Assembly (NCBI RefSeq): GCF_903853455.1
Contig: NZ_CAINTR010000142.1
Coordinates: forward strand, 1-45,916
Direction of reading: 5' to 3'
Origin: an uncultured Magnetospirillum sp.
GTDB taxonomy: Bacteria; Pseudomonadota; Alphaproteobacteria; Rhodospirillales; Magnetospirillaceae
Length of the DNA: 45,916 nucleotides
This document shows positions 28,215 to 30,451 of the stretch, piece after piece. The notes beneath the pieces are model-generated. The model saw nothing but the letters and a program-made list of their open reading frames with translations. It was not told the DNA's origin and searched no databases. Numbering within the stretch: the first letter of the stretch is position 1; the number at the start of each line of letters is the position of its first letter. Made by a program: the position numbers and the translations under genes.

Positions 28215-28487
28215 ATGGCCCATCATAAGTCGGCTAAGAAGCGCATCCGTCAGACCGAGCGTCGTACCGAGGTCAATCGCGCCCGCGTGAGCCGCATCCG
28301 CACCTTCGTGAAGAAGGTGGAACTTGCCATCGCCGCCGGCGATGCCGAAGCCGCCAAGCTCGCTCTGCACGAGGCCGAGCCCCAGATGATGCGGGGCGTC
28401 CAGGCTGGCGTGCTGCACAAGAACACCGCGTCGCGGAAGGTGTCCCGCCTCTCCGCCCGCGTCAAGGTCATGCTGCCGCTGGCCTAA
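28215..28487 (+). CDS. rpsT: 30S ribosomal protein S20
   Basis: The 90-residue basic protein begins [17 protein letters not shown] and has the long helical S20 pattern ([27 protein letters not shown]). It binds 16S rRNA early in assembly of the small subunit. The start at 28215 gives the conserved N-terminus; an upstream in-frame start at 28146 would lie in the promoter. It forms a single-gene transcription unit between its own promoter and a strong terminator and, as in many alphaproteobacteria, stands immediately upstream of dnaA. Confidence 0.97.
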
Positions 28488-28538: not shown

Positions 28539-29032
28539 TCGTTGGAAAATCGACTCTCGCCGGGAGTCCCAGGCAAACGCGCGAGTCTGGGAAAGCAAGC
28601 GAAAAATTTTCAATGTTCGCGTTCCGATCTCGTTGCCAGTGTCGGGGCGCATCGGTAGAGTCCCCTGCTCTCGACGGCTGGCTTAAAGACGCTGCGAGAA
28701 TTCAGAATACTTTTGCCTATTCTATACTGTGTCTGTGCCGCGGCTTTTGTGAAGCGGGCCACAGACAGACCGTGATGTTTTGTAATATCTATCGCAGGTC
28801 AGTTTACAGCCTCCGTCGCTTGGAGGTATGACTCGCAAAGGGCAAGCGCCGGGCGCCGACCATCGCCGGATGATGGAAGCGGTAGGGCTTGACGGAAGAT
28901 CGGCTCTCGGGGGCGGGAAGGCCGGTCCACACTCGCGGAGACAGGCCCTGAGAATAAGGGCCGGCGGCGTATCGCCCTGCCAAGACGTGGCGGCGGACCG
29001 CAGGTGGATGACAAGAATTCTAAGGGTGGGCA
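28539..29032 (+). promoter_or_regulatory. dnaA upstream control region
   Basis: This 494-base stretch has no credible gene. Five GANTC sites occur at 28552, 28564, 28583, 28658 and 28830. A TATACT at 28723-28728 could be a -10 element (weak -35), and an 8-bp inverted repeat TGTCTGTG/CACAGACA at 28730-28737 and 28760-28767 begins where that transcript would start. No TTATCCACA-type DnaA box was found, so I cannot call an origin here. AAGGGTGGG precedes the dnaA ATG. Confidence 0.45.
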
Positions 29033-30451
29033 ATGGCAAAGTCTGAGTGGGATCGGGTTAAGGTCAGGTTAAGAGACGAGGTCGGGGATGCCGCCTATCG
29101 CTCTTGGCTGCGTCCGATCACCCTGCACGGAGTCAGCGACGGCGACGTCAAGCTGGCCCTTCCCACCCGCTTCATGCGCGATTGGGTCGCCACCCATTAC
29201 GCCGAACGCATCCGCACCCTGTGGGGCGCTGAAAATCCCGGCATCCGCAATGTGGAGATCGTGGTCGGGGCGGTGCGCGCCACCGCCGCGCCGGCTCCCG
29301 CCGTCGAGCCCGCTGTCGTCGTCGCCGCCGTGCCGAAGGCTGCCGCGGCTCCGGTTCGGGCGGTTCGCGTTCCCGCCGCCGCGTCCGGCTCTTCCGCTCC
29401 GGCCGCCAGCAACAGCGACATCGACGAGTTGGGAGCCCAGCTCGACCCGCGCTTCACCTTCAAGAATTTCGTGGTGGGCAAGCCCAACGAGTTCGCCTAC
29501 GCCGCCGCCAACCGGGTGGCCGACGCCGACGCGGTCTCGTTCAATCCGCTGTTCCTCTATGGCGGCGTCGGTCTGGGCAAGACCCATCTGATGCACGCCA
29601 TCGCCCATCATATCCGCGAGCGCAATCCCCAGCGTACCGTGCTGTATCTGTCGGCCGAGAAGTTCATGTACCGCTTCATCCGGGCGCTCAGGACCCAGGA
29701 CACCATGTCGTTCAAGGAGCAGTTCCGTTCGGTGGACGTGCTGATGATCGACGATGTCCAGTTCATCGCCGGCAAGGACGCCACCCAGGAAGAGTTCTTC
29801 CACACCTTCAACGCCCTGGTGGACCAGGGCCGCCAGATCGTGATCTCGGCCGACAAGTCGCCGTCCGATCTGGAAGGCATCGAGGAACGGCTGCGCTCGC
29901 GCATGGCCTGCGGTCTGGTGGCCGACATCCACGCCACCACCTACGAGCTTCGCCTCGGTATCCTGCACTCCAAGGCCGAGCAGATGGGCGTGATCGTGCC
30001 GCAGAAGGTGATGGAGTTCCTGGCGCACAAGATCACCTCCAATGTGCGCGAATTGGAAGGCGGCCTGAACCGGGTCGTGGCCCATTCCCAACTGGTGGGG
30101 CGCGCCATCACCCTGGAATCCACCCAGGAGGTGCTGCAAGACCTGCTGCGCGCGTCCGATCGCCGGATCACCATCGAGGAGATCCAGAAGAAGGTGGCCG
30201 AACACTTCACCATCAAGCTGGCGGAAATGTCGTCGGCCCGGCGTTCGCGCCAGGTGGCCCGACCGCGCCAGATCGCCATGTATCTGGCCAAGCAGCTGAC
30301 CTCGCGTTCTCTGCCCGAGATCGGCCGCAAGTTCGGCGGCCGCGACCACACCACCGTCATGCACGCGGTGAAGAAGGTCGAGGAACTGAAGGAAAGCGAC
30401 CACAACTTCGCCGAGGATGTGGAGCTTCTGCGCCGCATGTTGCAGGGATAG
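29033..30451 (+). CDS. dnaA: Chromosomal replication initiator DnaA
   Basis: The 472-residue initiator has domain I (about 1-75, SEWDRVKVRLRDEVGDAAYR), an Ala/Pro/Val-rich linker (about 80-130), the AAA+ domain with Walker A GGVGLGKT (177-184) and Walker B VDVLMIDDVQF, and domain IV with the helix-turn-helix signature SLPEIGRKFGGRDHTTVMHA near 430-450. ATP-bound DnaA opens the replication origin. AAGGGTGGG about three bases before ATG 29033 supports the start. The first codons contain a perfect CtrA-type motif written with codons rare here (AGG, TTA, AGA), so the sequence at the 5' end probably serves a second, regulatory purpose. Confidence 0.98.
   Translation: MAKSEWDRVKVRLRDEVGDAAYRSWLRPITLHGVSDGDVKLALPTRFMRDWVATHYAERIRTLWGAENPGIRNVEIVVGAVRATAAPAPAVEPAVVVAAVPKAAAAPVRAVRVPAAASGSSAPAASNSDIDELGAQLDPRFTFKNFVVGKPNEFAYAAANRVADADAVSFNPLFLYGGVGLGKTHLMHAIAHHIRERNPQRTVLYLSAEKFMYRFIRALRTQDTMSFKEQFRSVDVLMIDDVQFIAGKDATQEEFFHTFNALVDQGRQIVISADKSPSDLEGIEERLRSRMACGLVADIHATTYELRLGILHSKAEQMGVIVPQKVMEFLAHKITSNVRELEGGLNRVVAHSQLVGRAITLESTQEVLQDLLRASDRRITIEEIQKKVAEHFTIKLAEMSSARRSRQVARPRQIAMYLAKQLTSRSLPEIGRKFGGRDHTTVMHAVKKVEELKESDHNFAEDVELLRRMLQG
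29058..29072. promoter_or_regulatory. CtrA-type site inside the dnaA 5' end
   Basis: TTAA-GGTCAGG-TTAA matches the full CtrA consensus TTAA-N7-TTAA and spans dnaA codons 9-14. CtrA is the essential cell-cycle or motility regulator of alphaproteobacteria. Binding here would place it about 25 bases into the gene, where it could block transcription. Confidence 0.55.

Follow-up and report, generated by a model that had tools for sequence, protein, structure and literature searches.

Conserved CcrM sites upstream of dnaA in Magnetospirillum, one within a predicted promoter -10 box

Upstream of dnaA in an uncultured Magnetospirillum sp., comparison with related loci supports the presence of conserved sites for the methyltransferase CcrM (GANTC), one of which appears to lie within a conserved promoter -10 box, as opposed to the exceptional cluster of GANTC sites described in an earlier, sequence-only reading of this DNA. 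The same reading had drawn attention to a CtrA-type motif inside the gene, which, judged from the related sequences, is best read as an incidental, one-species coincidence. The window refers throughout to the whole stretch of DNA analysed, 45,916 nucleotides in length. Its dnaA coding sequence (29033 to 30451, plus strand, with the ATG at 29033) encodes 472 amino acids with the Pfam domains DnaA_N, Bac_DnaA and Bac_DnaA_C. The reading frame upstream (28215 to 28487, plus strand) is, going by its sequence, presumably rpsT, encoding 30S ribosomal protein S20. A dnaA match was obtained in 144 of the 149 genomes searched (source genome included), and the start of the gene was compared in 50 loci, these being the source and 49 of the 143 remaining genomes in which dnaA was matched. 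An Rfam search gave four matches, all below threshold; one of these, to AsdA, an antisense RNA of dnaA (29558 to 29625, minus strand; 32.2 bits against a gathering score of 52), probably reflects similarity to the dnaA coding sequence.

GANTC sites and a predicted promoter upstream of dnaA

Five GANTC sites are found upstream of dnaA, at 28552–28556, 28564–28568, 28583–28587, 28658–28662 and 28830–28834. The window as a whole is depleted in GANTC (103 observed, approximately 203 expected from shuffles), so that five sites in a 283-base stretch clearly exceed what is usual locally, and to this extent the cluster described earlier stands. However, at least five GANTC within 283 bases were counted in 11 clusters in 446 kb of the source genome, the dnaA cluster included. 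The count alone is therefore not exceptional, and we rejected it as weak evidence for a special cluster.

The density of GANTC in this region is shared with relatives. The 500 bases upstream of dnaA contain a mean of 5.38 sites in 16 genus members (10.75/kb) and 3.85 in 26 other family members (7.69/kb), while seven control pentamers of the same base make-up range from 1.5 to 4.75/kb and from 1.62 to 3.92/kb in the two groups, respectively. Several of the sites also keep their position. In the 16-member genus alignment (which leaves out L010, a locus counted among the 17 for the codon and TTTAC-block tallies below), the site at 28583, upstream of the predicted promoter P1, is aligned with GANTC in 14 members. 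The GAGTC at 28658, within the P1 -10 box, is aligned with GANTC in 13, and the site at 28830, downstream of P1 and in a second genus-wide block, in 14. A GANTC by the ribosome-binding region, at 29017–29021, is held by 12 of the 16 and lost in the window. A further one, aligned to 28637 straight after the -35 box (TTGCGAGTC), occurs in nine of the 16 and is likewise absent from the window. The sites at 28552 and 28564 are not among the shared positions, the window having kept three of the five shared places plus two of its own. Columns of the control pentamers reached 15 members once (TCNGA at 28623, within the conserved core) and otherwise six at most; as the species share ancestry, the GANTC columns do not represent independent counts.

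A consensus promoter scan, blind to conservation, identified TTGCCA-N17-TAGAGT at 28633–28661 (P1) and, in addition, TTCAGA-N16-TATACT at 28701–28728. Promoters mapped in M. gryphiswaldense carry cTTGcc at -35 and TATaaT at -10, with transcription starting 6–9 bases downstream, according to the sections consulted of PMC9549626. The predicted -35 box of P1 (TTGCCA, 28633–28638, plus strand) matches the former, and the putative promoter as a whole fits this mapped Magnetospirillum consensus. Its -10 box (TAGAGT, 28656–28661, plus strand) overlaps the GANTC site at 28658. Upstream of P1, alignment and pattern scanning of family members pick out a AAAAATTTT tract (28602–28610, plus strand), which would be UP-element-like in role. 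Just 5' of the -35 box they also show a GTTC-N2-GTTCCGATC block (28615–28629, plus strand), strongly conserved in the genus and variable in some family members.

Loci across the family share, upstream of dnaA, the order A/T tract, GTTC block, TTG-N20-TAGAGTC; this last pattern occurs twice in the whole source genome. Among 42 family members, a set that leaves out L010 and L022 (short upstream sequence) and L065–L070 (other families), the -10 element reads TAGAGTC in 36, TAGTCT in three, TACAGTC in one and TAAAGTC in one, with no element found in the last. The spacing from TTG to the -10 box is identical in 40 of the 41 members that have the element, L062 having one extra base. In another family, L065–L067 have TTG-N20-TANAGTC upstream of dnaA with a -10 box lacking GANTC, and L065 and L067 have a GAGTC in the spacer. 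A wide pattern scan among the listed matches (L073–L136, mostly distant taxa) found TTG-N20-TANAGTC in two of 64, both of them genomes already counted. The second genus-wide block, TTTACA ... TATGACTC (TTTACA at 28803–28808, GANTC at 28830), recurs as TTTAC...GANTC in all but two of the 17 genus members and in none of 27 other family members, and it is doubtful as a second promoter.

These variants bear on the strongest alternative, namely that the GANTC at 28658 merely forms the -10 box of an ordinary promoter and the others reflect a general enrichment between genes, with any methylation having no regulatory effect on dnaA. We regard this as a real possibility, albeit an unlikely one. The TANAGT frame persists where GANTC is lost (TACAGTC, TAAAGTC), and three congeners have TAGTCT, which indicates that the conservation is in part plain promoter constraint. 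Intergenic GANTC is generally enriched in Alphaproteobacteria, by the account in the available portion of PMC3973325, and the source genome shows 2.82/kb in non-coding against 1.98/kb in coding sequence (446 kb). Mutation of the site in the Caulobacter dnaA promoter reportedly did not significantly alter promoter activity, a negative result cited in PMC3885167 and seen here in excerpt. It is also pointed out, in the part consulted of PMC2877005, which deals with computer-predicted sites, that the presence of GANTC alone cannot establish methylation control. Against this alternative, the GANTC density upstream of dnaA is more than three times the source genome's non-coding rate, and sites outside the -10 box (28583, 28830 and 29017) are also kept. 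Furthermore, 39 of the 41 family members with the element have G as the third base of the -10 box, where the published consensus has T (PMC9549626, in part).

CcrM and GcrA in the lineage

The source genome encodes a CcrM of 362 residues with N6_N4_Mtase and RAMA domains. Matches to CcrM at an E-value of 1e-60 or better were obtained in 50 of the 60 genomes searched and in 16 of the 17 genus members, the one exception being a genome that is 79% complete. Together with the conservation of the GANTC sites, which is stronger evidence than their number, the presence of CcrM in the lineage lends support, at the level of sequence, to the earlier suggestion that methylation contributes to the control of dnaA. 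In G027, a reduced genome that lacks CcrM, the region upstream of dnaA contains few GANTC and gave no match of the TAGAGTC type, a pattern to be read with caution given a GC content of 32%. In three congeners (G004, G006 and G015; loci L014, L013 and L011) CcrM is more divergent, at 71–72% identity; the range for the remaining 12 congeners in which it was matched is 87–95%. It is these three genomes, too, that carry the TAGTCT -10 box with no GANTC. CcrM has possibly been replaced in these genomes.

Full-length GcrA was not detected in the source genome, where the search gave a C-terminal match only (25 bits for the genome and 23.3 for the protein, with a cut-off of 26.9). GcrA scored above the cut-off in one of 17 genus members (G009, a doubtful case within a 409-residue frame), in two of the seven other family members searched (G019 and G022) and in each of the 16 genomes searched outside the family but within the order. 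A small protein resembling only the C-terminal part of GcrA is present in six genus members (the source genome G000, G001, G007, G011, G012 and G014) and, outside the genus, in G017 and G025 (E below 1e-20). The versions in the source genome (L206:548-748, contig C35) and in G001 (L207:380-607) are 66 and 75 residues long. Searched by itself, the G001 protein passes the Pfam cut-off, at 27.3 bits and over C-terminal positions only, while that of the source genome fails (23.3). In GcrA, it is the C-terminal part that contacts sigma70.

The CtrA-type motif within dnaA

A full CtrA-type motif, TTAA-N7-TTAA, had been reported in codons 9–14 of dnaA, with no second full site seen in the window, and both observations were confirmed. 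The sequence TTAAGGTCAGGTTAA lies at 29058–29072 in codons GTT, AAG, GTC, AGG, TTA and AGA, with both half sites reading TTAACC on the minus strand, and the pattern occurs once in the window (mean of 0.01 in 100 dinucleotide shuffles). The cell-cycle control of dnaA by CtrA that was proposed on this basis is not supported. At this place in dnaA the full motif occurs in one of the 50 loci, that of the source, and in none of the 49 relatives; all 16 congeners lack it and, AGG apart, use ordinary codons there. Moreover, it lies inside the coding sequence, approximately 400 bases 3' of P1. In another family of the order, L065 and L066 have a different full TTAA-N7-TTAA approximately 296 bases upstream of dnaA, while L067 has none.

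The nine remaining full sites of the source genome served as a positive control and were set against every full-site locus (26 in total) of the congeners G011, G014 and G007. For seven of the nine (L031, L032, L033, L034, L035, L038 and L039), one or more of these genomes has a full site at the aligned position or no more than a few tens of bases from it, while L037 and L040 have no such counterpart. Most full sites are thus conserved, and the dnaA site is the exception. Genes adjoining the other sites include flgB (Flg_bb_rod), cheR and a CHASE5/HisKA sensor kinase. The source genome also encodes a CtrA relative (C201:63288-63962) with Response_reg and Trans_reg_C domains and 68% identity to an approximate query sequence. 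With a CtrA relative present, and with flgB and cheR each near a full site, the genome resembles others of the order with CtrA sites at flagellar and chemotaxis genes. Flagellar genes are CtrA targets in all orders studied, and CtrA is linked to motility in Rhodospirillales and dispensable in M. magneticum, as stated in the parts consulted of PMC8116508.

A genome-wide excess of full motifs was considered and rejected. The source genome (5.18 Mb in 223 contigs) has 10 full sites and 21 matches to the same pattern read backwards, and the respective counts are 5–11 and 14–34 in each of the 17 genus members; against this crude control, the exact motif is not enriched. Chance is not proved as the origin of the dnaA site. 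If a genome is assumed to have 4800 genes, gene-start codon usage gives an expectation of 0.062 full motifs at gene starts per genome, a value low enough to make the coincidence more than trivial. Codon shuffling within genes yields approximately 0.43 full motifs per 4.5 Mb of coding sequence (scaled up, by assumption, from the 446 kb sample). The motif is thus improbable at any named place and seldom expected at gene starts, which leaves some, if small, probability to a recently gained function confined to this species.

It had further been argued that the codons of the motif, otherwise avoided in this GC-rich DNA, reveal selection on the DNA itself. This argument fails on two counts. Firstly, codon 12 (29066–29068) is AGG in all 17 genus members, whether the motif is present or absent, and is therefore an old feature of dnaA, unconnected with the motif. 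Among the same 17, GTT is found at codon 9 in two, and codons 13 and 14 are TTA and AGA in one each. Secondly, such codons are commoner at gene starts. Between codons 2–20 and gene bodies, TTA falls from 1.6% to 0.2% of Leu codons, AGA from 6.6% to 1.0% and AGG from 8.5% to 3.7% of Arg codons, and GTT from 15.5% to 6.6% of Val codons. These values derive from 446 kb of the source genome, in which we ourselves called genes as long reading frames (331 and 334 genes), some of them false; one full site (L159:19603), for example, was counted as coding when its true place is upstream of an OmpA-family gene. The presence of rare, AT-rich codons in a motif at a gene start therefore argues only weakly for DNA-level selection, since such codons are enriched there in any case.

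A role for CtrA restricted to this species, in which it would bind the site and control dnaA, for example by acting as a roadblock, strikes us as quite improbable. The motif is an exact match to the Caulobacter-type full site, half sites included, it is rare, and a CtrA relative is available. Unlike the shared full sites, however, it is missing in every congener and far downstream of the predicted promoter, and the reported dispensability of CtrA in M. magneticum also counts against such a role. Nor did the promoter scan place any promoter-like site over the motif. An antisense promoter driven by it was rejected, as the minus strand has no promoter-like site between 28400 and 29200 and the motif is unconserved. 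CtrA half sites near the upstream promoter were likewise discarded, the positions of TTAA varying across the genus with no column common to most members. Our preferred reading is that the motif in codons 9–14 would be a recent coincidence, eased by the AT-rich codon usage of gene starts.

A possible link between dnaA transcription and replication

Taking both motifs together, we consider it probable, judging from the sequence comparisons, that a P1 bearing CcrM sites ties dnaA transcription to the passage of the replication fork and that the CtrA motif is a species-specific coincidence. P1 would be a conserved sigma70-type promoter between rpsT and dnaA, approximately 375 bases upstream of dnaA, in which the -10 box and a CcrM site are merged (TAGAGTC), with further conserved GANTC in the surrounding sequence. 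CcrM would methylate these sites, and replication would leave them hemimethylated until CcrM acts again. The methylation state of the -10 box could then alter the use of P1 by RNA polymerase, and dnaA transcription would thereby follow the fork. The conserved methylation sites, one of them in a likely promoter, may thus let dnaA register the recent replication of its own DNA.

The GANTC sites could instead belong to a replication origin adjoining dnaA. Origins in Alphaproteobacteria can carry GANTC, and a long conserved non-coding region does adjoin the gene. We nevertheless hold this to be very improbable, given that GC skew shows no clear change at dnaA within the window (a weak test) and that in Rhodospirillales a position of dnaA close to the origin is reportedly not a conserved feature (PMC8116508, in part).

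The closest parallel to the preferred reading, a methylation-responsive P1, is the dnaA promoter of Caulobacter crescentus (Collier et al. 2007, as described in excerpts of PMC3973325, PMC3708114 and PMC3885167), which likewise has GANTC in the promoter region, in an organism that encodes CcrM and for which a link between dnaA transcription and replication has been proposed. Caulobacter dnaA is affected by CcrM methylation according to the parts seen of PMC3973325 and PMC3708114. In the present case, one GANTC falls within the -10 box as predicted, and a number of aligned sites persist genus-wide; the full-length GcrA of the Caulobacter GcrA-CcrM module was not detected in the source genome. 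A likeness also extends to the Caulobacter ftsZ and mipZ promoters, which are methylation-activated (PMC3708114, in part), and to 96 Caulobacter cell-cycle start sites with a GANTC at most 50 bp upstream (PMC4287350, in part), where GANTC is again near the promoter core and conserved among relatives. Those are other genes with measured effects, and the function of methylation at Caulobacter dnaA is disputed, whereas the present case is a prediction from sequence. The titles and abstracts of the literature searched, most of it unread in full text, contained no description of this dnaA promoter.

More tentatively, this lineage, having kept CcrM and lost full-length GcrA, might run a GcrA-independent epigenetic clock for replication initiation. 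In this speculative scheme, which would hold family-wide, the sigma70 polymerase itself would read methylation of the -10 box, perhaps helped by the small protein resembling the GcrA C-terminus, and so tie DnaA synthesis to fork passage. Methylation control of dnaA is disputed even in Caulobacter. A -10 box that is conserved across the family and is itself a CcrM site, in a family where most of the members searched have no detected full-length GcrA, would offer a clean test of whether RNA polymerase can read GANTC methylation directly.
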